This document shows, in pieces, positions 42 through 56,289 of a stretch of 64,000 nt of DNA. Numbering within the stretch: position 1 is the stretch's first letter; every line of letters begins with the position of its first letter. The position numbers were made by a program, and so were the translations under genes. The stretch comes from Propioniciclava coleopterorum (GTDB taxonomy: Bacteria > Actinomycetota > Actinomycetes > Propionibacteriales > Propionibacteriaceae): the NCBI RefSeq assembly GCF_011393335.1, contig NZ_CP049865.1:2932722-2996721 (forward strand), written 5' to 3'. The notes beneath the pieces are model-generated. The model was not told where the DNA came from. It ran no database searches and was given only the letters and a program-made list of their open reading frames with translations.

Positions 42-836
42 GTGGCCGAACAACGCGTGGCGCGGTACAAGGAGATCGAGTCCTGGCTCCGGGCGAAGTG
101 TCAGTCCTCGGCGCCCGGGACGCTGCTGCCGCCCGAGCTCGAGCTGGCCGAGCAGTTCCAGGTGAGCCGCATGACGGCGCGGCAGGCGGTGCAGAACCTG
201 GCTCAGGAGGGGCTGATCGAGCGGCGCCGCGGCGTCGGCAGCTTCGTCGCGGCCCAGCCGCTGCACCGGGCGGACGCCGTCCTGTACTCCTTCACCCAGG
301 ACATGACGCGCCGTGGCCTGCGCCCCACCTCGAAGGTGCTGGCCGCCGCCGTGGGGACAGCCCCGGCCGAGGCCGAGGCGCTGGGCCTGCCCTCGACCGC
401 GTGGGTGGTGCGCATCGACCGCATCCGCTACGCCAACGACCTCCCGGTGGCGCGCGAGCGGGTCACGCTGCCCGGCGACTACGCCGGGGTGCTGGAGTAC
501 GACCTGGCCGCGGGCTCGCTGCACGCCGCCCTGGCCGACATGGGGCGCGTCATGGCGCGCGCGAGCGGGTACGTGATGGCGCGGCTCGCCACGGGGGAGG
601 ACGCCAAGCTGCTCGACCTCGAACTGCCGGCGACCCTGCTGGTGGAGACCAGGCTCATCACCGACGTGGAGGGGCGCCCCGTGGAGCGCACGGAAACCTC
701 CTACGTCGGCTCGCGCTGGGTGATCGACACCGGGTCCTACGTCCCGATGCCCGACGGCCTGCCCGCCCCGGACGCCGCCAGCGCCGCCCCGATCGCGCCC
801 GCCCAGGACCCCAGCGCCGCGGGGACGACCGAGTAG
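42..836 (+). CDS. GntR/HutC-family transcriptional regulator with UTRA domain
   Basis: The protein has about 264 residues. It shows an N-terminal winged helix of GntR type (roughly residues 8-70, including the recognition segment VSRMTARQAVQNL and a wing ending in RRRGVGSFV) and a UTRA-like effector domain (about 85-235). HutC-subfamily proteins usually sense sugar phosphates or related metabolites and repress neighbouring catabolic genes. I chose the GTG at 42, which begins VAEQRVARYKEI, because GntR homology starts there; an upstream TTG at 12 would add ten unlike residues. Its last 100 bases overlap the convergent ROK kinase gene. The tail after about residue 235 is Pro/Ala rich and unlike the family. 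It probably controls the aldolase-SDR-kinase operon to its right. Confidence 0.85.
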   Translation: MAEQRVARYKEIESWLRAKCQSSAPGTLLPPELELAEQFQVSRMTARQAVQNLAQEGLIERRRGVGSFVAAQPLHRADAVLYSFTQDMTRRGLRPTSKVLAAAVGTAPAEAEALGLPSTAWVVRIDRIRYANDLPVARERVTLPGDYAGVLEYDLAAGSLHAALADMGRVMARASGYVMARLATGEDAKLLDLELPATLLVETRLITDVEGRPVERTETSYVGSRWVIDTGSYVPMPDGLPAPDAASAAPIAPAQDPSAAGTTE

Positions 837-1642
837 GACTCCGGGGGCGGCAGCGGCGCCATGCGCCGCAGGGCCTCCTCGATGGGGCGCAGCAGGATCG
901 AGCCCGCCTCCGCCACGCCGCCGCCGATGAACACCCGCTCGGGCTGCAGCAGCGTGACCGCGTTGGCCAGCCCGTGCCCGAGGTGGGCGGCCGCCTCCTC
1001 CAGCGCCGCCCGGGCGCGCGGCTCCCCGGCGCGGGCGGCCTCGACCGCCTCCACGATCGTCGCGGTGCCGGCGCGGGCGGCGATGACGCCCGAGCGGGCC
1101 AGCGCCTCCAGGCAGCCGCGGTTGCCGCAGCCGCACGGCGGGCCGTCCGGGACGAGGACCTGGTGGCCGATCTCGCCGGCGCCGCCGCCCGCGCCCGTGT
1201 GGAGCCGGCCGCCGACGATGACGACGCCGCCGATGCCGGTGCCCAGCACGATCCCGATGGCGGTGTCGGCGCCCCGGGCCGCCCCGAGTTCGAGCTCGGC
1301 CAGCCCGAAGGCGCGGGCGTCGTTGATCAGGGTGACCGGGCGTCCGGCCGCCGCCGCCACGGGGGCGACGATGGGTTGGCCGCCCCAGGAGCCGGGCAGG
1401 TTGGGCACGACCACGGCGTTCCCGTCGGCGTCGAACAGCCCCGGGATCGTGATGCCGACGCCGGCGATGCCGGGTTCGCGCCCGACCCGGGCGGCCACGA
1501 CGTCGGCCAGCCCGGCGACCGTCGCCGGCGCGCCGCCGCGCACCGTCGGCACCGTGGCCCGCTCGCTGACGACGCCGTCGCGCAGCAGGACGACCTTGAC
1601 CAGGGTGCCGCCGAGGTCGACGCCGAGCCAGGGGCCGCTCAC
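737..1642 (-). CDS. ROK-family sugar kinase
   Basis: 301 residues. It has the ATP phosphate-binding motif DLGGT (residues 9-13), the catalytic Asp in NDARA (Asp108), the glycine-rich LGTGIGG, and the ROK zinc signature with His160 and CGCGNRGC (170-177), so it looks like a complete sugar kinase or glucokinase relative. The start is GTG at 1642, in a GTGA overlap with the stop of the SDR gene, so the two are translationally coupled. The substrate is unknown. Next to a deoxyribose-phosphate aldolase it may phosphorylate the sugar that feeds the aldolase, but this is inference. Its 3' end runs 100 bp into the convergent GntR gene; the overlap includes the normal ROK C-terminal LGSWAGAIGAALA, so it is real coding sequence. 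Confidence 0.87.
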   Translation of the reverse strand: MSGPWLGVDLGGTLVKVVLLRDGVVSERATVPTVRGGAPATVAGLADVVAARVGREPGIAGVGITIPGLFDADGNAVVVPNLPGSWGGQPIVAPVAAAAGRPVTLINDARAFGLAELELGAARGADTAIGIVLGTGIGGVVIVGGRLHTGAGGGAGEIGHQVLVPDGPPCGCGNRGCLEALARSGVIAARAGTATIVEAVEAARAGEPRARAALEEAAAHLGHGLANAVTLLQPERVFIGGGVAEAGSILLRPIEEALRRMAPLPPPESYSVVPAALGSWAGAIGAALAASGAGRPSGIGT

Positions 1643-2385
1643 GAGACGCTCCAGCCGCCGTCCACCGCGACCACCTGGCCGGTGACCTGCCGTGTGGAGA
1701 GCAGCCACACGCACGCCGAGGCGACCTCGTCGGGGTCGACGAAGCCGCCCGGGGCGAGCGGCTGCTTCCGGGTCGCGAACGCGACGACGTCGGGGTCGCC
1801 CTGCGCCCGCGCGGCCATCGGCGTCCGGGTGAGGCCCGGGGTGACCGCGTTCACCTGGATGCCGTCGGCGGCGTAGTGCGCCGCGGCGGCGCGCACCAGC
1901 CCCTTGATCCCCGCCTTGGCGAAGGCGTAGGCGTGCGTGGCGAAGCCGGGCGCGGGGTGGCCGCCCAACACGCTGCCGATCAGGACCGCGCCGGCCGGAC
2001 GCTGCGGCCCGGCCGCGCGGACGAAGCCGCCCAGCCCGAGCAGGGGCGGCAGGGCGTTGAGGTCGAGCGTGCCCCGGACGGCCTCGGTGCTCAGGGTGTC
2101 GGCCGGGCCGTCGCCCAGCCGGCGCCCCGAGCCGCCGGCGACGCCGACGAAGCCGTCGAGGCCGCCCATGGCCGCGCGCGCGGCGGCCAGGGCGGCGTGG
2201 GTGGCCGCGCCGTCGGTGAGGTCGACGGCGGCGTGGGGGACGCCCAGGTCCGCGCCGAGGGCGGCCAGGCGGTCGGCGTCCACGTCGAGCAGGTGGACGG
2301 CGGCGCCGGCGGCGAGCGCGCGCCGCGCGACGGCCTCGCCGATCCCGCCCGCGCCGGCGATGCAGACGTGGCGTCCCGTGAGCAT
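1639..2385 (-). CDS. short-chain dehydrogenase/reductase (SDR)
   Basis: 248 residues, the usual size for a classical SDR. A Rossmann nucleotide-binding motif, AGAGGIGEA, lies at residues 9-17. The catalytic Ser138, Tyr153 and Lys157 are present (GSV and YAFAK), and the C-terminus ends in the typical VVAVDGGWSV. It should oxidise or reduce a hydroxyl or keto group with NAD(P). It starts in a TGATG overlap with the stop of deoC and ends in a GTGA overlap with the ROK kinase, so the three form one transcript. A role in oxidising a sugar or sugar acid of the same pathway is likely; the substrate cannot be read from the sequence. Confidence 0.85.
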   Translation of the reverse strand: MLTGRHVCIAGAGGIGEAVARRALAAGAAVHLLDVDADRLAALGADLGVPHAAVDLTDGAATHAALAAARAAMGGLDGFVGVAGGSGRRLGDGPADTLSTEAVRGTLDLNALPPLLGLGGFVRAAGPQRPAGAVLIGSVLGGHPAPGFATHAYAFAKAGIKGLVRAAAAHYAADGIQVNAVTPGLTRTPMAARAQGDPDVVAFATRKQPLAPGGFVDPDEVASACVWLLSTRQVTGQVVAVDGGWSVS

Positions 2386-3080
2386 CAGCGGCCGAACCGG
2401 CGCTCGTACTCGTCCAGGATCGCGGCGGTGGCGGTCGCGCCGCTGCGGTCGGCACCGGCCTCGCGCATCTCGAGCAGGGCGTCGAGCGTCCGGACGCCGC
2501 CGGCGCACTTCACCTTCACCCGCTCCGAGACGGTGGCGCGCATCAGGGCGACGTCCTCCAGGGTGGCGCCGCCCGGGGCGAAGCCGGTCGAGGTCTTCAC
2601 GTAGTCGGCCCCGGCCTCCTCCACGGCGCGGTAGGCGGCGACCTTCTGGTCGTGGTCGAGGTAGGCGTTCTCCAGGATCACCTTGACGAGGTGGCCGTCG
2701 GCGGCGGCGACGACCGCGGCGATCTCGTCGCGCACCCGGTCGACGAGCCCGCTGCGCAGCCAGCCGATGTTGACGACCATGTCCAGCTCGGTCGCGCCGG
2801 CCTCGACCAGCGCACGGGCCTCGGCGACCTTGACCGAGGTGAGCGTGCTGCCGTGCGGGAACGCGATCACGCTGCCCACAGCGACGTCCGTGCCGGCCAG
2901 CGCCTCGACGGCCAGCGGCACGTCCGCGGGCCGGACGCAGACCGAGGCGACGTCGTAGCGGGCGGCGAGCGCGCAGCCGTCGGCGACCTCCTGCAGCGTG
3001 AGCTCCGGCCGGAGCAGCGAGTGGTCGATCGTCTTGGCCGCGGTGCGGTAGTCGGGGGTCCGTGCGGGAGGGGTCGCCAT
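2385..3080 (-). CDS. deoC: deoxyribose-phosphate aldolase (DERA)
   Basis: 231 residues in a TIM-barrel class I aldolase family. The Schiff-base lysine lies in VKTSTGF (Lys162), the second active-site lysine in VKCAGGVRT (Lys191), and the proton-relay Asp in ELDMVVN (Asp100). The enzyme cleaves 2-deoxyribose 5-phosphate to glyceraldehyde 3-phosphate and acetaldehyde. I chose the ATG at 3080, which follows AAAGGCGGA, over an upstream in-frame ATG at 3134 that adds residues outside the family. It is the first gene of the operon with SDR and ROK kinase. The context suggests a deoxysugar or related sugar route rather than nucleoside salvage, because no nucleoside phosphorylase or phosphopentomutase is nearby. 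Confidence 0.88.
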   Translation of the reverse strand: MATPPARTPDYRTAAKTIDHSLLRPELTLQEVADGCALAARYDVASVCVRPADVPLAVEALAGTDVAVGSVIAFPHGSTLTSVKVAEARALVEAGATELDMVVNIGWLRSGLVDRVRDEIAAVVAAADGHLVKVILENAYLDHDQKVAAYRAVEEAGADYVKTSTGFAPGGATLEDVALMRATVSERVKVKCAGGVRTLDALLEMREAGADRSGATATAAILDEYERRFGR

Positions 3081-3150
3081 GGTCGAAGGTCCGCCTTTCG
3101 CGCCCGCGGGCGCCGTCGAGAGTCGAGGCCGCACCGGGCGGCATGCCGCC

Positions 3151-3181
3151 AGGCTAGATGTCTATACAAAATGTGTCTACA
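3151..3181. promoter_or_regulatory. divergent promoter region with GntR-type operator
   Basis: The segment 3159-3181 contains two similar direct elements, TGTCTATACA and TGTGTCTACA, in an AT-rich patch that stands out from its surroundings. Reading the minus strand, TAGACA (3179-3174) and TAGCCT (3156-3151) are 17 bases apart and could form the deoC promoter. Reading plus, TATACA (3163-3168) could be a -10 for the kinase gene at 3221. CTATACA here is the reverse complement of TGTATAG at the window start. A GntR-type regulator bound here would block both directions. The promoter assignment is by eye only. Confidence 0.5.
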
Positions 3182-3220
3182 GCCCTTCCTTTCCCCGGTC
3201 GCTCCCGGGATGATGGCCCC

Positions 3221-4102
3221 ATGCCCGAGTCCACGCTCGCCGGCGTCGACGCCGGCGCGACCAAGACGCACCTGCGCGTGGAGCGGGCCGGCGCCGTGCT
3301 GCTGGACGAGGTGGTCCCCACCGGCGCCTGGCGCCGCACGCCCACGTCGGTGGGCCCCGAGGACGCCGCCGCGCTGTGGTCGGCGCTCGGCTCCCCGGAG
3401 GGCCCGGTCCGCCTGGTGGTCGGTGCGCACGGCATCGACACCGCCGACGCGGCCCGTGCGCTGGCGTCCGGACTGGCGGCCCACTGTCGCGGTTCGGTCT
3501 CGGTTCACAACGACGCGGTCCTGCTGGGGCCCGCGGCCGGGTCGCGCGGGGTCAGCATCGCGATCGTCGCCGGCACCGGCGCGATCGTGCTGGCCGCCGA
3601 CGGCGCCGGGGTGCTGGCCACGCGCGGCGGCTACGGGTTCCTGCTCGGCGACGAGGGGAGCGCGGCCTCGCTCGTGCGCGACCTCGCCGTCGCCCTCACG
3701 CGCGCCGCGGACGCCGGGGCGCAGGATCCGGTCGCCCTCGAAGCGCTCGCGGCGTCGCTGGGCGTCCCGGCCGGTGCGGACCGGCTCGCCGCCGTCGCGC
3801 TCGCGCTGCACGACCGGGCCGCCCCCGCCGTCTGGGGGCGGCACGCGCCGGCCGTGTTCGACGCCGCGGCGTCCGGGTCGGCGTCCGCGGCGGGCGTGAT
3901 CGCGGCGCACGCGGCCGTGCTGGGCGGGCACGTCGCGTCCCTGGTGGCCGCGGGCCACGCGCCCGACGTGGTGGTGGCCGCCGGCGGCGTCGCGACGCAC
4001 CAGCCGGGCTTCGTCGCGGCGGTGCAGGAGGCGGCGCGCGCGGCCGGGGCGGCCGTGACGATCGAGGTGTTGCGGCGGGCGCCGGTGGCCGGGGCCATCT
4101 AG
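3221..4102 (+). CDS. BadF/BadG/BcrA-type ATPase, probable N-acetylglucosamine-like kinase
   Basis: 293 residues of the actin-like ATPase fold. Phosphate-binding motifs are DAGATKT (residues 10-16) and GTGA (118-121), and the segment LLGDEGSA (141-148) is typical of N-acetylglucosamine kinase relatives; NDA at 97-99 is the likely catalytic Asp region. It should phosphorylate an amino sugar or similar sugar in the cytoplasm. I prefer the ATG at 3221 to one at 3158, because the upstream stretch overlaps the promoter/operator. A SIS-domain protein follows after 27 bp. Kinase plus SIS isomerase is a common pair in amino-sugar catabolism. The true substrate is not evident. Confidence 0.78.
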   Translation: MPESTLAGVDAGATKTHLRVERAGAVLLDEVVPTGAWRRTPTSVGPEDAAALWSALGSPEGPVRLVVGAHGIDTADAARALASGLAAHCRGSVSVHNDAVLLGPAAGSRGVSIAIVAGTGAIVLAADGAGVLATRGGYGFLLGDEGSAASLVRDLAVALTRAADAGAQDPVALEALAASLGVPAGADRLAAVALALHDRAAPAVWGRHAPAVFDAAASGSASAAGVIAAHAAVLGGHVASLVAAGHAPDVVVAAGGVATHQPGFVAAVQEAARAAGAAVTIEVLRRAPVAGAI

Positions 4103-4129
4103 TTGGCCCGGCGCGGAGAGGACTGAACC

Positions 4130-5098
4130 ATGGAGACCATCGCCTTCGCCGACGCCATCGCGCGGCAGCCCGCCACCCTGCGCGCGGCGCTGCGGGCCGT
4201 CCGCGACGGGCTGCCCGGTCTGCCCGCCGTCACGGCCGACCCGACGGCGCGCCTGGCGATCCTCGCGATGGGGGCGAGCGTCCACGCGGCGCAGGCGCTC
4301 ACCGCGTACGCCACCGCCGCGGGCCGCTCGGTGGCGAACCACGACGCCTCCCAGGTCGGGCCGGCCACGACCGTGGCCGACTGGTACCTGGCGATCAGCG
4401 AGTCGGGGCGCAGCCCCGAGCCCCTGGCCGCGCTCGCGGGCCGGACGCCCTCGGTCGCGCTCACCAACGTGCCCGAGTCGCCGGTCGGGCGGGCCGCCGA
4501 CGCCGTCCTCTCGCTCGGCGGGTTGCCGGACGCCGGCGTCTACGTCACCGGGTACACCGCCACCGTCGCGGCGCTCGCGCTGCTGGGGGAGCGCGCCGGG
4601 CTGCCCGGCGCCGCCGCCGGCCTGGACGAGGTGCCCGACGCCGTCGCGGCCCTGCTCGCCGGCCCGCACGCGGCGCTGGAGCGACTCGCCGACGCGGCGC
4701 CCCGCTGCGTGGAGTCGGTCGGCGGCGGCGTCAGCTTCGCGGCGGCGTCCGAGCTGGCGCTGCTGATGCGGGAGGCCGCGCGCACGCCGGGGGCGGCCCA
4801 CACGCCCGCCACGTTCGTGCACGGCCCCGCCGAGAGCCTGGAGCGCTCCGACCTGCTGGTGCTGTGGGGTCCCGACCCGCTCGGGATCGCCGACCGGTTC
4901 GCCGGGGAGGTGCCGACCCTGCGCGTCTCCGCCGCCCCGGACGCCGACCTGCGGCTCCCCGACCTGCCGCCGATGGCGTCGGCCGTCCTGGAGGGGGTGG
5001 CGGCCCAGTTGATCGTCGCCCCGCTCGCCGGCCGCGGGTTCGACGTGGGGACGTTCCGGCACGAGTTCTCCGCCACCAAGCTGCGCCCGGGCGCCTGA
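4130..5098 (+). CDS. SIS-domain protein (sugar isomerase / deaminase-like)
   Basis: 322 residues with two SIS repeats related to the isomerase half of GlmS. The first half has the loop region around ILAMGASVHA (about 45-54) and SESGRSPE (about 88-95), the usual phosphosugar-binding serine segment. Such proteins bind phosphosugars and often act as aldose-ketose isomerases or amino-sugar phosphate deaminases. It lies 27 bp after the BadF-type kinase, so the kinase product is its probable substrate. It lacks a glutaminase domain, which makes an amidotransferase role unlikely. No further gene follows in the operon; 375 bp without a gene come next. Confidence 0.72.
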   Translation: METIAFADAIARQPATLRAALRAVRDGLPGLPAVTADPTARLAILAMGASVHAAQALTAYATAAGRSVANHDASQVGPATTVADWYLAISESGRSPEPLAALAGRTPSVALTNVPESPVGRAADAVLSLGGLPDAGVYVTGYTATVAALALLGERAGLPGAAAGLDEVPDAVAALLAGPHAALERLADAAPRCVESVGGGVSFAAASELALLMREAARTPGAAHTPATFVHGPAESLERSDLLVLWGPDPLGIADRFAGEVPTLRVSAAPDADLRLPDLPPMASAVLEGVAAQLIVAPLAGRGFDVGTFRHEFSATKLRPGA

Positions 5099-5473
5099 GT
5101 CCCGCCTCTCCCCAAGCGGGTCTCGGCCCCGGCGACCTCGGCACCGCGACCTCCGCGCCCGAACCTCGCCGCCGGCACGCCGGCCCCGGGGCCGAGCCGT
5201 CCGCGCGACGGCGCCGGCGACCGCGAACCCGCCGCTGAACCATCGCGGCCCCCTGTCCTGAAAGCCGGTTGCCACGACCCCACCGACAGCCGCCCTGAAC
5301 CCCTTGAACGCCCTTGATGCGGCCTTCCGCGCGCGCGGGCAAGAGCGGTGACAAGGGGCGTCGCCTCACACGTTCCGATTTGTGAACCGCCCATCTCGCA
5401 TAGTGTCACATCACCCGAAACGGGTGAGGCGGAGTAGTGTGCCGTCGATTCAGCCGTTCGCAAGGGGGAGAAC
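5099..5473. other. intergenic region upstream of the AroM operon
   Basis: This 375-bp stretch carries no convincing gene. It contains a perfect 14-bp GC palindrome at 5181-5194, a possible terminator stem for the SIS gene with no T tract. In its last 100 bp it becomes less GC rich and holds a possible weak promoter: TTGTGA at 5380-5385 and TAGTGT at 5401-5406, only 15 bp apart. That is directly followed by the inverted repeat at 5409-5429. The Shine-Dalgarno AAGGGGGAG lies just before the ATG at 5474. Confidence 0.5.
5409..5429. promoter_or_regulatory. inverted-repeat operator CATCACCC-N5-GGGTGAGG
   Basis: CATCACCC (5409-5416), a 5-base spacer GAAAC, then GGGTGAGG (5422-5429). Seven of eight positions of the second arm match the perfect inverted repeat. 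The same 8-5-8 layout appears at 40000-40020 (perfect) and 44971-44991 (six of eight). Here it lies 45 bp before the AroM start and overlaps or follows the probable -10, a position suited to a repressor. The protein that binds it is unknown. Confidence 0.6.
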
Positions 5474-6139
5474 ATGGCGAAAATGGGGGTTGTGACGATC
5501 GGGCAGGCGCCCCGAACGGACATGGTTCCGGAGATGGCGCGGCACTGGTCGCAGATCGACGTGGTCGAGCGCGGCGCGCTCGACGGGATGACCGCGGACG
5601 AGATCGCGGCGGTCCCGCGGCGCGACGGCGACGAGGTACTCACCTCGCGCCTGGTCGACGGCACCGCCGCCGTCTTCGGCCGCGACCTGGTGCTGCCGCT
5701 GCTGCAGCAGCGCATCACCGAGCTGGAGGCGTCCGGGGTGGACGCGGTGCTGCTGGTCTGCACCGGTGAGTTCCCTCCCTTCGAGCACTCCAAGCCGCTG
5801 TTCACCGCCTCGCCGCTGCTCACCGGCGGCGCGCGCGGCCTGACGCAGGGGACCATCGGGGTCATCTGTCCGCTGCCCGAGCAGCAGGACGACTCGGTCC
5901 AGAAGTTCGCCCCCGCCGACGTCGCGACCGCCGTGGCGAACCCGTACGGCGGCTCCCGGGACGACTTCGAGGCCGCCGCCGCCGCGCTGGCGGGCCAGGG
6001 CGCCGAGCTGATCGTGCTCGACTGCATGGGCTACAACGAGGAGCACCGCGGCTGGGCCCGCGCCGGCGCCGGCACCATCCCCGTCGTGGTGGCGCGCTCC
6101 CTGGTGGCCCGCCTCGTCGCCGAGGCGGTGGAGGCATGA
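5474..6139 (+). CDS. AroM family protein
   Basis: 221 residues. The N-terminus GVVTIGQAPRTDMVPEM is the hallmark of the AroM family (named from an E. coli gene regulated with aroL; biochemical function unknown). The fold is expected to resemble the aspartate/glutamate racemase superfamily; a cysteine occurs in LVCTGEFPPF (about residue 96) and another in LDCMGYNEEH (about 182), spaced as in two-cysteine racemase-like enzymes. It opens a tight six-gene operon and its stop overlaps the start of a true racemase-family gene (ATGA). A lyase, racemase or isomerase role on a small amino or carboxylic acid is a reasonable guess. Confidence 0.82.
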   Translation: MAKMGVVTIGQAPRTDMVPEMARHWSQIDVVERGALDGMTADEIAAVPRRDGDEVLTSRLVDGTAAVFGRDLVLPLLQQRITELEASGVDAVLLVCTGEFPPFEHSKPLFTASPLLTGGARGLTQGTIGVICPLPEQQDDSVQKFAPADVATAVANPYGGSRDDFEAAAAALAGQGAELIVLDCMGYNEEHRGWARAGAGTIPVVVARSLVARLVAEAVEA

Positions 6140-6788
6140 TCGGCCTGATCCGGGTCGTCTCGACCCTCACCGACGACCAGCTCGCCCTGCACGCGCGGGC
6201 GATCCAGCACCTCGTCGGCGAGGAGGAGATCGTCACCCGCGCCATCGCCGACCAGCCCAACGGCATCCACGACGACGAGACGTTCGATCGGGCCGTGCCC
6301 AAGATCGTCGCGCTCGGACGCGAGCTGGCCGCCGAGGGCGCCCGGCTCCTCATCGTGTCGTGCGCGGCCGACCCCGCCGTGCCGGAGCTCCGCGAGGCCG
6401 TCGACGTCCCCGTCGTCGGGCCGGCTCCGCGGGGGCCTCGCTGGCGCTGGCCGCCGGCGGCACCGTCGGCGTCCTGGGGATCACCCCGGACGTCCCGCAG
6501 GCCGTCCTCGACGTGCTCGGCGACCGGTTCGTCGCCGACCGCGTGCCCGAGGGCGTCGCCTCGACCATCGACCTGATGCAGCCCCAGGCGCGCGAGCGCG
6601 CCCTGGTGGCGGCGGAGGAACTGAAGACGGCCGGCGCGCAATGCGTGCTGTTCGCCTGCACCGGCCTGACCACCATCGGTCTGGCCGCCGAGGTCATCGA
6701 GCGGACCGGCCTGCCGGTCGTCGACGCCGTCATGGCGGCCGGCGCCGCGACGGGCCTCATCCTGCACCCCGCCCCGACCCTCACCTGA
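6136..6788 (+). CDS. Asp/Glu/hydantoin racemase family protein (frame broken by one missing G)
   Basis: Read as one gene with a 1-base correction it gives about 217 residues. The first part (from ATG 6136) contains the first catalytic-type cysteine in IVSCAADP. The second part, in the other frame, contains LGITPDVPQ, the second cysteine in FACTGLTT, and a normal C-terminus ending at 6788. The break is at the GGG run 6418-6420; one more G restores VPVVGAGSAGASLAL. Family members interconvert or cleave amino acids or hydantoins using two cysteines. It overlaps aroM-like by ATGA and precedes the OPT transporter by 19 bp. The break matches six others in G/C runs of this window, so I regard the gene as intact in the cell. 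Confidence 0.75.
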
Positions 6789-6807
6789 TTTCCCGAAAGG
6801 CCCACCC

Positions 6808-8493
6808 ATGTCTCAACAAGCGGCGGAGCCGCGCGGCCACTCCGCGGACGCGGCCCATCCCCGGACGTTCGAACCGTCCATGGTGGTGGTGCTCGTCATC
6901 ACGTCGATCCTCGGCGCGATCATCGGCATCCAGATCCTGACCACGCTGGGCGTCACGCCCAACACGGCGATCATCGGCGTCCTCGTGGCGATCGCGCTGA
7001 GCCGCATCCCCCTGGCCGCGCTGAAGAAGTTCCGCTCGGTGCACCGGCAGAACCTCGTGCAGTCCAACATCTCGACCGCGACGTTCGTGGCCGCCAACTC
7101 CCTGCTGCTCCCCATCGCGATCCCGTGGGTGATGGGACGCCCCGAGCTGGTCTGGCCCCTGCTGATCGGCGCCGCCGCGGCCGCGCTCATCGACTTCCTG
7201 ATGCTGTACTGGATGTTCGACTCCCGCGTCTTCCCCGGCAAGGAGGCGTGGCCGCCCGGACTCGCCGCCGCCGAGGCCATCAAGGCCGGCGACCGGGGCG
7301 GCCGCCGCGCCGGCCTGCTGGGCATCGGCACCCTCGTCGGCATCATCGGCTCGGCCATCGGCGTCCCGATGTCGGCGTTCGGCGTCGCGTTCATCGGCAA
7401 CATCGTCGCCCTGACCATGTTCGGCGTGGGCCTGCTCATCCGCGGCTACTCCATGCCGATCGCCGGGATCGACATCAACGCGATGTACATCCCGCACGGC
7501 TTCATGATCGGCGCCGGCATCGTGGCGCTCTTCCAGGCCGTGTGGACCATCGTCGGACGCCGCAAGGCGACCGCGCACGCCGTCGCGACGGGCGCGAAGA
7601 CCTCGGAGCTCTCCCGTGTCATCGAGGAGGGCGAGGTGGCGCCTCCGGTCGTCGTGGACCGCGGCGAGCTGACCCGCAGCGAGGAGGCCGTCAAGATGGC
7701 GCTGACCCGTGGCGCGGTGCTGTACGCGATCGCGGCCGCCGTGCTGGCGGTCGTCAGCGGCCTGCTCGCCGAGATGGGCATCGGGATGCTGATCCTGTGG
7801 GTGCTGTTCGCGACGTTCGCCTGCATCGCCGCCGAGTTCATCGTCGGCCTGTCGGCGATGCACTCGGGCTGGTTCCCGGCGTTCGCCACCGCGCTGATCT
7901 TCCTGTCGCTGGCGCTGATCGTCGGGTTCCCGCCGGTCGCGGTCGCCCTGGTCACCGGCTTCATCGCCGCCGGCGGACCCGCGTTCGCCGACGCCGGCTA
8001 CGACTTCAAGACCGGCTGGATCCTGCGCCGCCACGAGAGCCGCGCCATGGAGATCGAGGGCCGCAAGCAGCAGTTCTTCGCCGGCGTCGTCGGCATGGCC
8101 GTCGCCCTGGCGGTCGTGGCCATCGCGCACCCGATGTACTTCGCCAACGAGCAGTTCCCGCCCGTGGCGAAGGTCTTCGTCGCCACCATCCAGGCGGGCG
8201 TCGACCCCGCGCTCATCACGACGCTGGCGCTGTGGGCGATCCCCGGGGCGATCATCCAGGCCATCGGCGGCCCCAAGCGCCAGATGGGCATCCTGCTCGC
8301 CACCGGCATGCTGATCTCGAACCCGGCGGCCGGCTGGGCCGTCCTGGTCGGCATCGCCCTGCGCATCCTCTACACCCGCCTCCGCAAGGACAAGGACGCG
8401 GCCGAGAGCGAGATGACCATCGCCGCCGCCGGCTTCATCGCCGGCGATGCCCTGTGGAGCTTCGGCAACTCCATGTACAAGCTCGTCAAGTAA
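6808..8493 (+). CDS. OPT-family transporter
   Basis: 561 residues, almost entirely hydrophobic helices (at least twelve segments), with the oligopeptide-transporter (OPT/YSL) family style loops such as NLVQSNISTATFVAANS and PGKEAWPPGLAAAEAI (about residues 137-152). OPT proteins are proton-coupled importers of small peptides, peptide-like molecules or metal chelates. Here it sits in the middle of an operon with a dipeptidase and racemase-like enzymes, so it likely imports the starting substrate. Its start has a fair ribosome site (GAAAGG). It is followed after 10 bp by the DUF1177 gene. Confidence 0.83.
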   Translation: MSQQAAEPRGHSADAAHPRTFEPSMVVVLVITSILGAIIGIQILTTLGVTPNTAIIGVLVAIALSRIPLAALKKFRSVHRQNLVQSNISTATFVAANSLLLPIAIPWVMGRPELVWPLLIGAAAAALIDFLMLYWMFDSRVFPGKEAWPPGLAAAEAIKAGDRGGRRAGLLGIGTLVGIIGSAIGVPMSAFGVAFIGNIVALTMFGVGLLIRGYSMPIAGIDINAMYIPHGFMIGAGIVALFQAVWTIVGRRKATAHAVATGAKTSELSRVIEEGEVAPPVVVDRGELTRSEEAVKMALTRGAVLYAIAAAVLAVVSGLLAEMGIGMLILWVLFATFACIAAEFIVGLSAMHSGWFPAFATALIFLSLALIVGFPPVAVALVTGFIAAGGPAFADAGYDFKTGWILRRHESRAMEIEGRKQQFFAGVVGMAVALAVVAIAHPMYFANEQFPPVAKVFVATIQAGVDPALITTLALWAIPGAIIQAIGGPKRQMGILLATGMLISNPAAGWAVLVGIALRILYTRLRKDKDAAESEMTIAAAGFIAGDALWSFGNSMYKLVK

Positions 8494-8503
8494 AGGAGAA
8501 CCC

Positions 8504-9439
8504 ATGTCCCTCACGCACGTTCTGACCGCCTACGACCTGCTGGACGATCCCGCCGTCACCGGCGACGCCGTGGTGGCGTGGCTCGCGGAGCAGGGCGCCA
8601 CCGAGGCCACCTCGCGCACCATCGAGGGCCCCCGCGGCAGCACCGACTTCATCCGGATCGTGATCCCCGGCACCCGCGGGAAGGCGTCCGGCGGCGACGC
8701 CCCGACGCTCGGCCTGGTTGGACGCCTCGGCGGGCTCGGCGCCCGTCCGGAGCGGATCGGCTTCGTCTCCGACGGTGACGGTGCGCTCACCGCCGTGGCC
8801 GCCGCGGCGAAGCTCGCGCAGATGGCGCAGCGGGGCGACACGCTCGAGGGCGACGTCATCATCACCACGCACATCTGCCCCGACGCGCCGACCCGCCCGC
8901 ACGAGCCGGTCGCGTTCATGGACTCCCCGGTGGACATCGACACGATGAACAGCGAGGAGGTCGAGGAGGCGATGGACGCCGTCCTGTCGGTGGACACCAC
9001 CAAGGGCAACCGCATCGTCAACCACCTCGGCTACGCCATCTCCCCGACGGTGAAGCAGGGCTGGATCCTGCGCGTCAGCGAGGACCTGCTGCAGATCTAC
9101 GCCGACTCGGCCGGCATCCCGCCGGTCGTCCTGCCGATCACCATGCAGGACATCACGCCGTACGGCTCGGACGTCTACCACGTGAACTCGATCCTGCAGC
9201 CCTGCGTCGCGACGTCCGCGCCGGTCGTCGGCGTGGCGATCACGACCGAGACGGCGGTGCCGGGCTGCGGCACCGGCGCCACGAACCCGCTGGTCGTCGA
9301 GGGCACCGTCCGGTTCTGCATCGAGGTCGCCAAGGCGTTCGGGCAGGGCAAGGTGTCGTTCTTCGACGAGGCCGAGTTCGGCGAGCTCGTCTCGCGTTAC
9401 GGCGAGATGAGCGTCCTGCAGACGCTCGGGCGCGCCTGA
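8504..9439 (+). CDS. DUF1177 protein
   Basis: 311 residues covering the DUF1177 family from end to end. It is a soluble protein without signal peptide. Segments such as THICPDAPTRPHEPVAFMDSP (about 125-145) contain a Cys, two His and Asp residues that could form a metal or catalytic site; this is a guess from composition, since no activity is established to my knowledge. A strong ribosome site AAAGGAGAA precedes the ATG at 8504. It ends in a TGATG overlap with the DUF917 gene, so the two are produced together. Confidence 0.8.
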   Translation: MSLTHVLTAYDLLDDPAVTGDAVVAWLAEQGATEATSRTIEGPRGSTDFIRIVIPGTRGKASGGDAPTLGLVGRLGGLGARPERIGFVSDGDGALTAVAAAAKLAQMAQRGDTLEGDVIITTHICPDAPTRPHEPVAFMDSPVDIDTMNSEEVEEAMDAVLSVDTTKGNRIVNHLGYAISPTVKQGWILRVSEDLLQIYADSAGIPPVVLPITMQDITPYGSDVYHVNSILQPCVATSAPVVGVAITTETAVPGCGTGATNPLVVEGTVRFCIEVAKAFGQGKVSFFDEAEFGELVSRYGEMSVLQTLGRA

Positions 9440-10473
9440 TGCGGCGGCTCACGGCGGACGACGCCCGGCACGCCGTCGTCGGGGGACTGATCCTCGGCGG
9501 TGGCGGGGGCGGCCACGCGGACCTGGGGCTGGATCTCGCCGAGGCGGCGCTCGCCGCGGGCGAGGTGATGCTCGCGGGCGTCGACGAACTGCCGCCCGAC
9601 GCCGTCGTGGCGATCTGCGCCGGCGTCGGCGCCCCCGGCGCGCCCGAGGGGCACGTGTCGAAGGCGGACTTCACGACCAGCCTGCAGCACCTGGACGCCG
9701 AACTGCAGCGCCGCGGCCAGGGGCCGATCGTCGCCGTGGCGACCAACGAGAACGGGGCCATGGGCACCGTCAACGGGTGGCTGCAGGCGGCCACCACCGG
9801 GCTGCCGGTGCTCGACTGCCCGTGCAACGGGCGCGCCCACCCGACCGCCCTGATGGGGTCGCTGGGGCTGCACCGGGACGCCGACTACGTGGCGATCGCC
9901 GGCTACGCGGGCGGCAACGAGGCGCACTACACCGAGGGCGTCGTCGTCGGCTCGCTGGCCACGGCCTCCCAGGGCATCCGTGCCCTGTCGGTCGTGGCGG
10001 GCGGCCTGGTCGCCGTCGCGCGCAACCCGGTCCCGCTCTCCTTCCTCGCCGAACGCGGCGCGCCGGGGGGCATCACGCAGGCGATCGAGGTCGGTCGCGC
10101 GCACGAGCAGGGCGGCGTCCAGGCGGTCGCGGACCTGCTGGGCGGGCGCATCCTGGCGTCCGGGCCGGTCACGGGCTTCGGGATCGAGCAGGTCTCCGGG
10201 TTCGACGTCGGCGCCCTCAGCGTCGGCGACGTCGACCTGACCTTCGTCAACGAGTACATGGGCGCGGTGCAGGCGGGGGAGCAGGTCGGTTCGTTCCCCG
10301 ACCTCGTCATGACCTTCGACGCCGCGACGGGCGAGCCCGTCGTCTCGGCGGACCTGGCCGACGGCCGGGGGATCACCGTGCTGTGGGCGCCGCGGTCCTC
10401 CCTGCTGCTCAGTGCGACGATGGACATGCCCGAGCTCATGGAGGCCATCGGCGACCTGGCGACGGCCGGATAG
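9439..10473 (+). CDS. DUF917 protein (S-methyl-thiohydantoin desulfurase-like)
   Basis: 344 residues, full length for DUF917. It has the family's glycine-rich start VGGLILGGGGGG (about 15-26), a conserved ATNENGA segment (about 96-102), and DCPCNGRAHPTALMGSLGL (about 122-140). Some annotated relatives are called S-methyl thiohydantoin desulfurase, and others sit beside hydantoinases. A role on a cyclic imide, hydantoin or related amide is therefore possible, and the racemase-family neighbour agrees, but the real reaction is not known. It starts inside the DUF1177 stop (TGATG), and pepE follows after 6 bp. Confidence 0.8.
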   Translation: MRRLTADDARHAVVGGLILGGGGGGHADLGLDLAEAALAAGEVMLAGVDELPPDAVVAICAGVGAPGAPEGHVSKADFTTSLQHLDAELQRRGQGPIVAVATNENGAMGTVNGWLQAATTGLPVLDCPCNGRAHPTALMGSLGLHRDADYVAIAGYAGGNEAHYTEGVVVGSLATASQGIRALSVVAGGLVAVARNPVPLSFLAERGAPGGITQAIEVGRAHEQGGVQAVADLLGGRILASGPVTGFGIEQVSGFDVGALSVGDVDLTFVNEYMGAVQAGEQVGSFPDLVMTFDAATGEPVVSADLADGRGITVLWAPRSSLLLSATMDMPELMEAIGDLATAG

Positions 10474-10479
10474 GAAGCC

Positions 10480-11160
10480 ATGGAACTGCTGCTGCTGTCC
10501 AACTCGACCAACTTCGGGTCGACCCCCTGGGCGCACGCCCGGGAGATCGCCCGGCCCCTGGTGGAGGGCCGCACCGTCGTGTTCGTCCCGTACGCGCTGG
10601 CCGATCACGACGCGTACACCGCGAGCATCGCCGAGGCGTTCGCGCCGATGGGGGCCGACGTCGTCGGCCTCCACACCCACGACGACCGGGCCGCCGCCCT
10701 GGCGTCCGCCGAGGCCGTCTACGTGGGCGGCGGGAACACCTGGCGCCTGTTGAAGACGCTGCAGGACGGCGGGCTGCTGGCGCCCCTGCGCGAGCGCGTC
10801 CTGGCCGGCATGCCGTACCTGGGCGCGTCGGCGGGCACCAACCTGGCCTGCCCGACGATCCGGACGACCAACGACATGCCCATCGTGGAGCCCGCCGGGT
10901 TCGCCGCGCTGGGGCTGATCGGCTTCCAGATCAATCCGCACTACCAGGACCCGCCCGCCGGGAGCCGCCACATGGGCGAGACCCGCGAGACCCGGATCCG
11001 GGAGTTCCACGAGGAGAACGACATCCCCGTGCTGGGCATCCGCGAGGGCGGCTGGCTGCGCGTCAGCGGCGACTCCACCGAACTCGGTGGGGCCACGGCG
11101 CGGCTGTTCCGCGCCGGCGAGGACCCGGTGGAGCTGAGCCCCGGACCGGTCCGGATCTGA
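10480..11160 (+). CDS. pepE: dipeptidase E (peptidase S51 family)
   Basis: 226 residues. The family's catalytic serine is Ser117 in GASAGTN, with Asp132 in NDMPI and His154 in INPHY. The spacings Ser-Asp 15 and Ser-His 37 equal those of the E. coli enzyme (Ser120, Asp135, His157 from memory). The motif GGGNTWRLL is at 83-91. Peptidase E hydrolyses dipeptides with an N-terminal aspartate. As the last gene of the operon it suggests that the imported compound is an aspartyl peptide or yields one. No leader peptide, so cytoplasmic. Confidence 0.88.
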   Translation: MELLLLSNSTNFGSTPWAHAREIARPLVEGRTVVFVPYALADHDAYTASIAEAFAPMGADVVGLHTHDDRAAALASAEAVYVGGGNTWRLLKTLQDGGLLAPLRERVLAGMPYLGASAGTNLACPTIRTTNDMPIVEPAGFAALGLIGFQINPHYQDPPAGSRHMGETRETRIREFHEENDIPVLGIREGGWLRVSGDSTELGGATARLFRAGEDPVELSPGPVRI

Positions 11161-52622: not shown

Positions 52623-53732
52623 ATGTCCGGGCCGAACGACAACTACGACCCCAAGCAGGTCGCGGCGCTCAGCGCCGACGCGCTGGACGCGACCGTGGCG
52701 CAGGCGCTGGCGGCGTTCGCCGCCGCCAGCACGACGGGGGAGCTGAAGGCGGCGCGCCTGGCGCACACGGGCGAGAAGTCGCCGGTCGCCCTGGCCAACC
52801 GCGAGATCGGCGCCCTGCCGCCCGCCGCGCGCAAGGACGCCGGGCAGCGCATCGGACGCGCCCGCGGGCAGCTCAACCAGGCGCTCGCCGCCCGGCAGGC
52901 CGAGCTCGAGGCGTCCGAACTGGAGGCCGCGCTGGCGTCGGAGGCCGTCGACGTGACGCTGCCCGTCGCGCTGGCGCCCGAGGGGGCGATCCACCCGATC
53001 ACCGGCCTGATGGACCTGATGGCTGACGTGTTCGTCGCGATGGGCTGGGAGGTCGCCGAGGGGCCCGAGGCCGAGGCCGAGTGGCTCAACTTCGACGCGC
53101 TCAACATCGGCGCCGACCACCCGGCGCGCGGCGAGTCCGACACCATCTTCCTGGCGCCGGCCGGCAGCCACCGCGTCCTGCGGACCCACACGTCCCCGGT
53201 GCAGATCCGGTCGATGCTCGACCGCGAGCCGCCGCTGTACGTGGTGTGCCCGGGCAAGGTGTACCGCGCCGACGAGTTCGACGCCACCCACGTGCCGGTG
53301 TTCCACCAGATCGAGGGGCTGGCCGTCGACAAGGGCATCACGATGGCCCACCTCAAGGGCACGCTGGAGCACCTGGCGAGGTCGATGTTCGGAGACGTGA
53401 CGATGCGGTTCCGGCCCAACTACTTCCCGTTCACCGAGCCCAGCGCCGAGATGGACCTGGAGTGCTTCGTCTGCCACGGCGCCTCGGTGGGCGACCCCGA
53501 CAACCCGTGCCGCACCTGCCGCAGCGAGGGCTGGATCGAGTGGGGCGGCTGCGGCGTGGTCAACCCGCGCGTCCTGCGCGCCGCGGGCATCGACGCGGAT
53601 GTCTACTCGGGCTTCGCCTTCGGCATGGGGATCGAACGCACGCTGATGTTCCGCAACAACGCCACCGACATGCGCGACATGGTCGAAGGCGACGTCCGGT
53701 TCAGCCGGGCGCTGAAGGGAGAGGCCCGATGA
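52623..53732 (+). CDS. pheS: phenylalanyl-tRNA synthetase alpha subunit
   Basis: 369 residues. The N-terminal coiled coil (about 20-105) includes [16 protein letters not shown] and is followed by the class II core: motif 2 [21 protein letters not shown] and motif 3 [13 protein letters not shown]. The insert [31 protein letters not shown] contains two CxxC pairs, a zinc-type feature of the alpha chain in many bacteria. Forms the alpha2beta2 enzyme with PheT. AAGGAGG precedes ATG 52623 and the end overlaps pheT by ATGA. Confidence 0.95.
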
Positions 53733-56289
53733 GGGCGACGAAGAGCTGGATCGCCGAGTACGCCGCGCTGCCCGCCGGGCTGAGCGGACGCGAGCTGGGC
53801 GAGGCGCTGGTCCGTTCCGGGCTGGAGGTGGAGTCGGTCGAGACCATCGGCGGCGACGTCACCGGCCCCGTCGTGATCGGGCGCGTGCTGGGCTTCACCG
53901 ACGAGCCGCAGAAGAACGGCAAGACCATCCGCTGGTGCCACGTGGACGCCGGAGCGGCGCACGCGCCCGCCGACGCGCCCGCGCCGCTGGTCAAGGGTGG
54001 GGTCACCGAGCCCGTCGTCGCCGACGGCGGACAGTACTGGCCGCGCGGCATCGTGTGCGGCGCCCACAACTTCGCCCCGAGGACCTGGTCGTGGTGGCGC
54101 TGCCCGGCAGCGAGCTGCCCGGCGGCTTCGGCATCGCGTCGCGCAAAACCTACGGCCACGTCTCCGACGGCATGATCTGCGCCGAGGACGAGCTGGGGCT
54201 GGGATCCGATCACGACGGCATCATCGTGCTCGGTGAGGCCGACGCGGCGGGGGAGCCGTGGGTCATCGGTGCGCCCGCTCTGGACGCGATGGGCGTCGTC
54301 GACGACGTCCTGGAGATGCCGATCACCTCCGACATGGGCTACTGCCTCAGCGTCCGCGGCCTGGCCCGCGAGGCCGCGCAGTCCCTCGGCGTCGCCTACA
54401 CCGACGTCGTCGCGCTCGAGACGCCGGCCGCCCACGAGGGCGGGTACCCGGTGCGCCTCGAGACCGCGGGGGCCGACCTGTTCGTCGCGCTGACCGTCGA
54501 GGGGTTCGACCCGTCGGCACCGTCGCCGGACTGGCTGCGGCAGCGGCTGGCCGCCGCGGGGATGCGCGCGCTGTCGCTGAGCGTCGACGTGTCGAACTAC
54601 GTGATGCTCGAGACCGGGCAGCCCAACCACTGCTACGACGCCGACGCGCTGCGCGGCGCCATCGTCGTGCGGAACGCCGCCCCCGGCGAGCGCCTCGTCA
54701 CGCTCGACGACGTGGACCGCGCCCTGGACGCCGCCGATCTGGTGATCGCCGACGACCGCGGCCCCATCGGGCTGGCCGGCGTCATGGGGGGCGAGGACAC
54801 CGAACTGCGCGACACCACCACCCGCATCGTGATCGAGGCGGCGCATTTCGACCCCGTCGCCATCGCCCGTACCTCGCGCCGGCACAAGCTCGGCAGCGAG
54901 GCCTCCCGGCGCTTCGAGCGCTGGGTCGACCCGGGCGCGGCCTACAGCGCCGCCCGCCGCGTCGCCGACCTGCTCGTCGAGCTCGGCGGCGGGACGCTGG
55001 TCGCCGAGACCGTCGTCGGCGCCGTCGCGTCCATGCCCGGCCAGACGATCGACGGCCGCCTGCCCGAGCGGGTGCTCGGGATGCCGGTCCCGGTCGAGCG
55101 GGCGGTCGAGGTGCTCACGGCGTCCGGCGTCGCGGTGGCCCGCGACGGCGACACGCTCACCCTAGCGCCGCCGACGTGGCGCTACGACCTCGTCGACCCC
55201 TACGACTACGTCGAGGAGGTCGGCATCAAGGTCGGCTACGACCACCTGCCCTCGGTCGTGCCGCCGGCCCCGGTCGGCCGCGGCCTGACCCGCGAGCAGT
55301 CCGCGCGCCGCGCGCTGGGCCGCGCGCTGGCCGCCGCCGGGTTCGTCGAGGTGCTCACGTTCCCGTGGGCCTCCGAGGCCGACCTGGACGCCCTGGGCGT
55401 CCCCGCCGACGACCCGCGCCGCGCCGCCGTGCGGCTGGTCAACCCGCTGGCCGACACCGCGCCGCTGCTGCGCACGACGCTGCTGCCGGGCCTGATCGGG
55501 GCGCTGCAGCGCAACGCCTCCCGTGGCGCCGACGACCTCGCGCTCGTCGAGACCGGCCGGGTGTTCTTCAACGCCGGTGAGGAGCCCACGCCGGAGCCCG
55601 GCGTCGCGGGGCGTCCCACCGCCGAGGAACTCGCCGGGATCGAGGCGACGCTGCCGCGGCAGCCGCGGCACCTGGGCGCCGTCGTCGCGGGCGCCTGGCG
55701 TCCGGCCGGCTGGGACGGCGCGGCGCAGGCCGCGGGCTGGCAGCAGGCGCTCGGGCTGGCCGAACTGACGGCCCGCACGGTCGGCGTCCGGCTGGAGCGC
55801 CGGGCCGACGCCACGGCCCCGTGGCACCCCGGTCGCTGCGCGGCCCTCGTCGTGGACGGCTCGGTGATCGGGCACGCGGGCGAACTGCACCCCGCGGTCA
55901 TCAAGGCCTTCTCCCTGCCGCCGCGGACCGCGGCGCTGGAGCTCGACCTGGACGCCCTGCTGGCCCACGTCGGCGCCCCCGGATCGCTGCCTCCGGTCTC
56001 GGCGCACCCCGTCGCCAAGGAGGATGTCGCCCTCGTCGTGGACGAGTCCGTGACGGCCGCCGACCTCGAAGCGGCGCTGGTCGCCGGCGCCGGCGACCTG
56101 CTGGAGTCGGTGCGGCTGTTCGACATCTACCGCGGCGCGCCGGTGCCCGAGGGCCACAAGTCCGTGGCGTTCGCTCTCCGGTTCCGCGCCCCCGACCGGA
56201 CGCTCACCGCCGACGAGGTCAACGCGGCCCGCGACGCCGCGGTCTCCCACGCGACCCAGCAGGTGGGCGCCCAGCAGCGCGCGGTGTAG
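53729..56289 (+). CDS. pheT: phenylalanyl-tRNA synthetase beta subunit; frame broken by one missing C
   Basis: Corrected length about 853 residues. The first frame gives [16 protein letters not shown] and the tRNA-binding (EMAP-like) domain to CGAHNFAP; the second resumes [16 protein letters not shown] and continues through the B3/B4 editing domain, B5 and the C-terminal anticodon-binding domain (about 765-850). The break is at the C4 run 54075-54078, where five are expected. The gene is essential and single copy in bacteria, so a true null is not credible; this is the best evidence that the other run-length breaks in the window are also sequencing errors. Confidence 0.93.

Follow-up and report, generated by a model that had tools for sequence, protein, structure and literature searches.

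A conserved gene set around DUF1177 in Propioniciclava coleopterorum, a possible module for the catabolism of cyclic dipeptides

The question raised by this locus is what kind of compound is handled by a run of six genes in Propioniciclava coleopterorum, i.e. AroM, a racemase homologue, an OPT transporter, DUF1177, DUF917 and S51/PepE, all on the + strand. The window analysed is the whole stretch of 64,000 nucleotides in which the run lies. A sequence-only reading had described a single-direction run with ATGA and TGATG overlaps and gaps of 6-19 bp, and the families, coordinates and spacings agree with this description: from gene 1 to gene 6 the spacings are -4 (ATGA), 19, 10, -1 (TGATG) and 6 bp (Table 1).

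Table 1. Features of the six-gene run, numbered from the first letter of the window
Feature	Position	Strand	Basis
Perfect inverted repeat TCACCCG-AAA-CGGGTGA, possible operator	5411..5427	.	Sequence pattern
AroM-family protein, 221 aa, Asp/Glu/hydantoin-racemase fold (predicted)	5474..6139	+	PF07302, structure model, Foldseek, alignment
ORF, N-terminal racemase half with first catalytic-type Cys (ISCAADP), then out of frame	6136..6576	+	PF01177 profile 20-96, 39.7 bits
Overlapping ORF in another frame, C-terminal racemase half with second Cys (FACTG)	6360..6788	+	PF01177 profile 99-207, 35.4 bits
OPT-family transporter, 561 aa	6808..8493	+	PF03169, 96.5 bits, cut-off 25.8
DUF1177, 311 aa, predicted M28/M17-like metallo-aminopeptidase fold	8504..9439	+	PF06675, 445.8 bits; Foldseek of model
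DUF917 / S-Me-THD-like protein, 344 aa, putative cyclic-amide-acting enzyme	9439..10473	+	PF06032, PF20906
PepE, alpha-aspartyl dipeptidase, S51, 226 aa	10480..11160	+	NF003642, solved PepE, alignment

The inverted repeat, a candidate for the single operator that had been claimed for the run, lies 46 bp upstream of the AroM start; it does not recur beside the other fetched copies of the cluster. With up to 3 mismatches allowed, the palindrome occurs twice in the window, where 0.21 occurrences would be expected; as many turned up in 5 of 100 shuffles. The pattern was found in a single one of 129 fetched loci (L094), within another gene about 7 kb from the cluster of that locus, and the exact window motif is absent throughout L094 at up to 3 mismatches. 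An operator common to the cluster copies was thus rejected. No RNA element reached the gathering score between positions 5000 and 11400, and a scan for promoters and terminators gave no result.

The AroM-family protein passes the Pfam model PF07302 with an E-value of 2.9e-69 (233.4 bits, gathering score 23.8) and stays under the cut-off of NCBIfam PRK10481 (189 bits, cut-off 198), which we take to be the model of E. coli AroM. Foldseek matched its structure model (pLDDT 96.3) best to 2eq5 (E 5e-8, TM 0.70), the 'hydantoin racemase' of Pyrococcus horikoshii, a protein deposited as hypothetical that is also very close to the racemase of a Thermococcus copy of the cluster; further matches were MurI, allantoin racemase and OpaE (9qbx). 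Cys96 and Cys184 are invariant across 30 aligned sequences. By its predicted fold and these two catalytic-type cysteines AroM belongs to the Asp/Glu/hydantoin racemase superfamily.

The second gene (6136-6788), which codes for an Asp/Glu-racemase homologue, does not keep to one frame, i.e. no single ORF includes both cysteines in this assembly. The racemase cysteines had been described as intact; both codons do exist, but in different frames. All 14 aligned relatives have one continuous frame, and the C-terminal half is 63% identical over 94 residues to its one-frame relative in L088. The split is likely to be an assembly indel, since pheT, of which a sole copy was found in the genome, is broken in the same manner; a programmed frameshift was rejected in view of the one-frame relatives and of pheT.

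By its sequence, gene 6 encodes a true PepE. It scores 277.4 bits against the equivalog model NF003642 (cut-off 156) and matches the solved PepE structures 1fy2 (E 4e-58) and 7c9b (E 1e-62). Ser117, Asp132 and His154, presumably the catalytic triad by their positions in solved PepE, are invariant in 12 aligned sequences, so the earlier claim of intact catalytic residues holds for this S51 alpha-aspartyl dipeptidase.

Structure prediction of DUF1177, which had been suggested earlier, pointed to a zinc aminopeptidase fold, that of amide-bond hydrolases: the model (pLDDT 90.7, pTM 0.92) was matched by Foldseek to the Streptomyces griseus aminopeptidase (E 5e-9, prob 1.00, TM about 0.5-0.6). DUF1177 agrees in predicted fold with the M28/M17 zinc aminopeptidases but differs from them in the absence of a match at the sequence level, i.e. 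there is no Pfam peptidase (M28) match and no profile match to solved structures in the PDB. A profile-profile comparison with M28 by hhalign, a weak test with 4 M28 sequences only, gave a nil score, and no HxD or EE motif was seen among the invariant columns.

DUF917 aligns nearly full length with the (S-methyl) thiohydantoin desulfurases (NF058529 and NF058532), but its scores are less than half of the curated cut-offs (213.7 versus 440 and 207.3 versus 450 bits). Judged by these scores it is related to that group without belonging to it. It also has a profile match to 2o3i (E 5.5e-35); nothing useful on thiohydantoin desulfurases was found among the literature matches listed. The OPT protein shares 43-65% identity with 17 relatives encoded in loci of this kind, and no solved structure matched it in the profile search.

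Is the combination peculiar to this genome? We compared the loci of the best 80 of 399 DUF1177 relatives, a set that leans to close relatives and in which DUF1177 is present throughout by choice of the query; the flanks reach the full 8.5 kb in 54 loci and are shorter in 26. Within 8.5 kb of DUF1177 there is AroM in 60, OPT in 40, a racemase in 40 and DUF917 in 37 of the 80 loci. The five families are complete in 22/80 loci and in 17/50 genus-level groups (taken from record titles, each unnamed metagenome bin counted as its own group), none of them actinobacterial. Beyond the 80, all five were found in one locus only (G072/L088), which also has PepE and is the only other locus with exactly the six families of the window. 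DUF917 is missing in 43/80 loci, including all 14 actinobacterial ones. PucR regulators occur in 29/80, nitroreductase-family genes resembling cyclodipeptide oxidases (CDO) in 3/80 and HyuA-like genes within 8.5 kb in 3/80; a cytosine/purine/allantoin-type permease family is present in some of these loci. The labels PucR, IclR, Dpp, HyuA and EamA were each checked on a single representative. At the genome level, in a comparison that included 34 DUF1177-negative genomes hand-picked from those listed, an OPT match was obtained in 9 DUF1177-positive genomes, and in 7 of these the gene is distant from DUF1177 or on a separate contig (one of them has short contigs); such counts are lower bounds, the OPT near DUF1177 in G114 (L090) having been found only by a profile of our own.

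Clustering of these genes exceeds chance and is strong across phyla and distant lineages, Thermococcus included. A co-occurrence search across genomes had been put forward as a check of the sequence-only reading, which a lack of conserved clustering would refute; the clustering proved to be conserved, and this refutation fails. What lies in the window is one copy of an undescribed gene set that is widespread among bacteria and archaea, and the module has probably spread horizontally.

The importers and the peptidases are the parts that change between lineages. Peptide-type importers are found in 69/80 loci (OPT 40, Dpp 33, both 4), and the representatives checked by Pfam are oligopeptide/dipeptide-type ABC parts. 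A locus tends to have either OPT or a Dpp-type importer. Strict exclusion was rejected: counting DppB only there is 1 shared locus, while any of DppA, DppB or DppC gives 4/80 (5 within 11 kb), three Kribbella loci included. A peptidase (M29-like, M20, S33-like or S51) lies near DUF1177 in 62/80 loci. As for the M29-like label, a match to Peptidase_M29 (E <= 1) was obtained for 17 of the 20 members, and the best solved relative of the group is a dihydroxypyridine dioxygenase, followed by M29 aminopeptidases. PepE does not belong to the general set: within 11 kb of DUF1177 it occurs in 14/14 actinobacterial loci versus 0/66 others, i.e. it is a frequent actinobacterial neighbour instead. It is on the opposite strand in 12 of these 14 loci, and among 11 further loci of the actinobacterial phylum it is near DUF1177 in 5 and missing in 6. 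To our knowledge, PepE has not been reported from an operon of this kind.

A peptide-catabolic module is well supported, and the earlier claim that a peptide-like or cyclic-amide compound is taken up and degraded finds support as well. From the families, the predicted folds, the conserved residues, the clustering and the exchange of transporters and peptidases we infer a substrate, a ring-opening enzyme and an order of steps. We tentatively suggest that the compound taken up is a short peptide, ring-closed and/or epimerised, and most likely a 2,5-diketopiperazine (cyclic dipeptide), which would contain Asp where PepE is present. The compound would enter via OPT, or elsewhere often via a Dpp-type ABC importer. 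AroM and the second racemase homologue, as two-cysteine acid/base enzymes, would then invert alpha-carbons and make the LL form available, and DUF1177 and/or DUF917 may hydrolyse one lactam and open the ring. In the last step PepE would release Asp and X from the linear Asp-X dipeptide, a role that M29-like, M20 or S33-like peptidases may play in other lineages. Of the options considered in the sequence-only reading we would, with some reserve, prefer cyclic dipeptides to hydantoins or cyclic imides.

Breakdown of cyclic dipeptides is supported by the clustering, the peptide-type importers, the nearby peptidases, the constant presence of PepE in the 14 actinobacterial loci and the true PepE of the window, as well as by the fold and cysteines of AroM and the predicted amide-hydrolase fold of DUF1177. 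There is also a precedent in NozR, an Asp/Glu-racemase homologue that isomerises cyclo(Trp-Trp) and whose cysteine mutants failed (PMC10156859). NozR (likened here by family) and OpaE belong to the Asp/Glu-racemase family like the module racemases; both are biosynthetic and act on diketopiperazine or peptide-derived rings. The racemase of the Thermococcus cluster matches 2eq5 (E 5e-113) and OpaE 9qbx (E 1e-9), which together with NozR counts in favour, as does the hydrolysis of cyclo(Asp-Phe) and cyclo(Asp-Asp) by Paenibacillus chibensis, a report that, in the parts consulted, does not identify the enzymes (PMC3852281). Degradation of cyclo(Asp-Phe) is reported for P. chibensis DSM 329, Streptomyces flavovirens DSM 40062 and Rhizobium sp. 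DSM 24917 (PMC3852281).

The same proposal is weakened by the lack of a sequence-level M28 link for DUF1177, the rarity of CDO-like genes, the loci without DUF917, the 6 further loci without PepE, the PucR regulators, which are named for purine catabolism, the distant OPT genes in 7/9 genomes and the broken racemase in this assembly. Apart from NozR-type racemases, we know of no member of these families with a cyclic-dipeptide activity. In a paper on caprolactamase it is other genes, of the oxoprolinase/hydantoinase type, that are suggested as possible cyclic-dipeptide hydrolases, which counts against our proposal (PMC6061476).

A rather unlikely alternative is the salvage of linear damaged peptides, in which D-Asp, isoAsp or succinimide peptides are imported, epimerised and cut by PepE or M29/M20, with DUF1177 as an unusual exopeptidase. 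The peptide importers, the several exopeptidases in the loci, the true PepE and the predicted aminopeptidase fold of DUF1177 are all consistent with it, and the many loci without DUF917 imply that the route can at times do without a ring enzyme. However, it gives DUF917 no role where this gene is present, and we know of no Cys/Cys racemase of this family that epimerises residues inside linear peptides.

It is unlikely, too, that the pathway is one for hydantoin, thiohydantoin or allantoin, with the racemase and DUF917 acting on a 5-substituted hydantoin and the peptidases only cleaning up the product. Hydantoins are favoured by the relation of DUF917 to enzymes acting on hydantoin-type rings and by the HyuA-like genes beside it in four fetched loci (f27); the allantoin-type permeases and the closeness of AroM and the racemase to hydantoin, allantoin, Asp and Glu racemases point the same way. 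Yet HyuA-like genes are as rare as noted above, DUF917 is often missing, the importers are mostly of peptide type and it is hard to see what a dedicated Asp-X dipeptidase would do in a hydantoin route; among the operon genes of the window Pfam revealed no HyuA/HyuB-type hydantoinase gene.

Among the literature matches listed we found no described pathway with this gene set, as had been stated earlier, but part of the set has already been noted beside CDO genes, without DUF1177: non-CDPS CDO clusters are enriched for PF01177, AroM, DUF917, OPT/ABC peptide importers, EamA and peptidases, and CDOs also occur in Blautia, Clostridium and Thermococcus (PMC11055893, Nat Commun 2024). This enrichment counts for cyclic dipeptides too, as do the nitroreductase-family genes near DUF1177 in 3/80 loci; the paper itself defines the clusters by CDO genes, does not mention DUF1177/PF06675 in its main text, proposes purine or secondary metabolism and favours a hydantoin pathway. 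The window differs from these clusters, with no CDO nitroreductase-like gene within 8.5 kb. A role outside nutrition, in which a peptide natural product is modified or detoxified, would fit the families shared with those clusters, but it is improbable given the dominance of importers and peptidases and the many phyla, including Thermococcus.

If cyclic dipeptides are indeed the substrate, DUF1177 could be the missing diketopiperazine hydrolase, a new metallo-aminopeptidase-fold family whose metal site is rearranged, and the surrounding module a general bacterial and archaeal recycling pathway for ring-closed and epimerised dipeptides; we regard this as doubtful. Peptides give rise to cyclic dipeptides spontaneously, and such compounds are frequent among natural products. 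A study of peptidases and strains from 2013 left unclear which enzymes hydrolyse them (PMC3852281), and a paper from 2018 could only suggest oxoprolinase-like genes (PMC6061476). The conserved module offers a small gene set in which the hydrolysing enzymes can be sought, and, if the proposal is true, DUF1177 and AroM would gain a function.

The module of which the operon in the window is one form is very probably of a peptide-type catabolic nature. The six genes (AroM, racemase homologue, OPT, DUF1177, DUF917, PepE), which the sequence-only reading had placed in a tight unidirectional unit, do lie on one strand with spacings of -4, 19, 10, -1 and 6 bp, and their Pfam matches are AroM, Asp_Glu_race (as two partial matches), OPT, DUF1177, S-Me-THD_N/C (the current Pfam name for DUF917) and Peptidase_S51. 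The only part of that reading to fail is gene 2 as one open frame, since the halves of this racemase homologue lie in different frames. A gap of 110 bp separates the operon from the following gene, which encodes a nitronate-monooxygenase homologue. Among the fetched loci, the closest relatives of the window proteins are mostly actinobacterial.

Positions of features (window coordinates unless a locus is named)
Feature	Position	Remark
Upstream cluster	57-5098	GntR/UTRA regulator, ROK kinase, short-chain dehydrogenase, DeoC-type aldolase, BadF-type ATPase/kinase, SIS protein
Perfect 7+7 inverted repeat	5411-5427	
Six-gene operon	5474-11160	
Gene 2, first half	6136-6576	one of two family-typical cysteines
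Gene 2, second half	6360-6788	other frame; other family-typical cysteine
pheT, first part	53729-54172	model 1-72
pheT, second part	54091-56286	model 93-798
Second, related locus of the window genome	L094:7786-13349 (C1, ~900.8-906.3 kb)	IclR (divided between two ORFs), OPT, M29-like, S33-like, AroM; no DUF1177
AroM near DUF1177 in G003	L089:6905-7284	left only as pieces in different frames

The break in gene 2 is probably an assembly indel, or possibly a true mutation. All 14 aligned relatives have a single frame, and one ORF of L088 (genome G072) matches both halves. In the window the essential pheT gene (phenylalanyl-tRNA synthetase beta) is also split over two frames, and a search of the genome, a single contig (C1) of 3.67 Mb in which the window spans 2932722-2996721, found no second pheT; this is a sign of indel errors in the assembly. 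The IclR gene of the second locus is likewise split.

PepE scores 277 bits against the curated PepE model (cut-off 156), matches solved PepE structures and retains Ser117, Asp132 and His154, i.e. the catalytic residues are intact, as had been claimed. The AroM model (pLDDT 96.3) contains two invariant cysteines and matches 2eq5 (TM 0.70) as well as glutamate, aspartate and allantoin racemases. The cluster racemase of a Thermococcus locus (L057) matches 2eq5, a solved "hydantoin racemase", at E 5e-113 and OpaE at 1e-9. DUF917 has one clear solved relative, the uncharacterised 2o3i; its kinship is with the thiohydantoin desulfurases, although its scores stay under half of their cut-offs. For the DUF1177 model (pLDDT 90.7, built from 58 of the 88 family members collected), the best 50 of 249 matching chains (E <= 0.001) include M28 and M17 aminopeptidases as well as glutaminyl cyclases; sequence methods gave no kinship. 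Judging by topology, the SDGD motif (Asp90/Asp92) may correspond to the bridging Asp of M28 and Asp164 (IDTTKG) to a second ligand, and His123 would presumably occupy the position of the M28 Glu pair.

A scan of genome contigs gave 399 DUF1177 relatives, the best 80 of which were retained, and partners within 8.5 kb were counted using profiles built from these loci. AroM was found in 60/80 loci, an M29-like peptidase in 47, OPT and the racemase in 40 each and DUF917 in 37, followed by the regulators IclR (32) and PucR (29), DppA (31) and DppB (30) of the dipeptide-type ABC importer, M20 (29), S51 (11), S33-like (6), and nitroreductase-like and HyuA-like proteins (3 each); one locus, L041, had none of them. 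AroM (54/60), OPT (38/40), the racemase (38/40) and DUF917 (36/37) mostly share the strand of DUF1177. AroM, racemase, OPT, DUF917 and DUF1177 occur together in 22/80 loci and 17/50 genus-level groups (12 of the 54 loci having full flanks), in lineages that include Bacilli, Clostridia, Synergistota, Chloroflexi and Thermococcus. A nameless conserved family of ~275 aa, f14, occurs in 10/80 loci (L007, L018, L026, L027, L032, L049, L066, L067, L076, L078) and adjoins DUF1177 or AroM in nine; in a scan of two members, neither matched Pfam or NCBIfam at E 0.01.

The 80 loci include 14 from Actinobacteria; these lack DUF917 in the neighbourhood, and the five-gene core is therefore absent from all of them; AroM is present within 8.5 kb in 14, OPT in 13 and the racemase in 6. 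All 14 carry PepE no further than 11 kb from DUF1177 (11 of them within 8.5 kb, the three Kribbella loci at ~10 kb), and 12 have it on the opposite strand; in the other loci it is this close in 0/66. Among 11 further loci of the phylum it is near DUF1177 in five (L088-L092) and not in six (L093, L095-L099). All six families occur together in 0/80 loci and in one of these 11, L088, where PepE and IclR are oppositely oriented. The window thus unites, in a single direction, a core that is otherwise mostly non-actinobacterial with the actinobacterial PepE. In four of the f27 genomes (L096, L097, L098, L099), DUF1177 and an M29-like gene lie near a HyuA-like/DUF917 pair, with a carbon-nitrogen-hydrolase gene in 3/4.

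DUF1177 is sporadic (7/197 genomes of the family and 9/396 of the phylum, the window genome included in each). Partners were searched in all 15 positive and 34 negative genomes: AroM occurs in 9/15 (one fragment; one weak and distant, E 1.4e-4) versus 0/34, DUF917 in 11/15 versus 1/34, and OPT in 9/15 versus 4/34 (two of these under the cut-off). By position, AroM is near DUF1177 in 7/15 (the window genome G000, G003 as a fragment, G072, G102, G114, G183, G524) and DUF917 in 9/15; OPT is distant or on another contig in 7/9 OPT-bearing positives (the contigs of G097 are short), and in G114 a nearby OPT was added by the profile built from these loci. Among the 197 genomes, the window genome alone in its genus carries DUF1177, and this protein shares more identity with those of Actinocatenispora (71%) and Kribbella (68-69%) than with the proteins at three loci within its own family (57-64%), and 63-65% with the three Thermococcus proteins (L009, L047, L057) across domains. 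Horizontal spread is therefore likely from these sequences.

As to the substrate, the importers point to a peptide-like solute, the Cys/Cys racemases to an acidic alpha-carbon as in ring-closed amides, the kinship of DUF917 to a ring amide, the DUF1177 fold to amide hydrolysis, and PepE to Asp-X as the final intermediate in the window. A cyclic dipeptide would satisfy all five points and the rivals fewer, for which reason we tentatively suggest cyclic dipeptides, which would be imported, epimerised and ring-opened. NozR, a racemase of the same family, is known to act on such rings (PMC10156859). Salvage of linear damaged peptides agrees with the importer, DUF1177 and PepE but gives DUF917 no role, and is doubtful. 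A hydantoin, thiohydantoin or allantoin pathway is unlikely: hydantoins fit the racemase and DUF917 and fail on the peptide importer and Asp-X. PMC11055893 describes the surroundings of non-CDPS cyclodipeptide-oxidase genes, where racemases, AroM and DUF917 are found together with importers of peptides and with peptidases, and proposes hydantoin or allantoin chemistry there. With respect to cyclic dipeptides, the enzymes hydrolysing them are stated to be unclear in PMC3852281, and one sentence of PMC6061476 says that some oxoprolinase-annotated genes may be such hydrolases. Titles and abstract starts among the matches listed, mostly non-subscription literature, held nothing else relevant, and a description elsewhere is possible; DUF1177 itself had only an unrelated mention among the matches listed.

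Importers and peptidases are exchanged between loci. OPT (40 loci) and Dpp-type ABC importers (33) co-occur in 4/80 and 11/80 have neither (Fisher p ~1e-8, uncorrected for kinship). AroM is present in 38/39 loci with OPT and no DppB versus 14/29 with DppB and no OPT, and M20 shows the opposite (6/39 versus 20/29). The constant theme is peptide import together with an exopeptidase, and the choice of each is lineage-specific.
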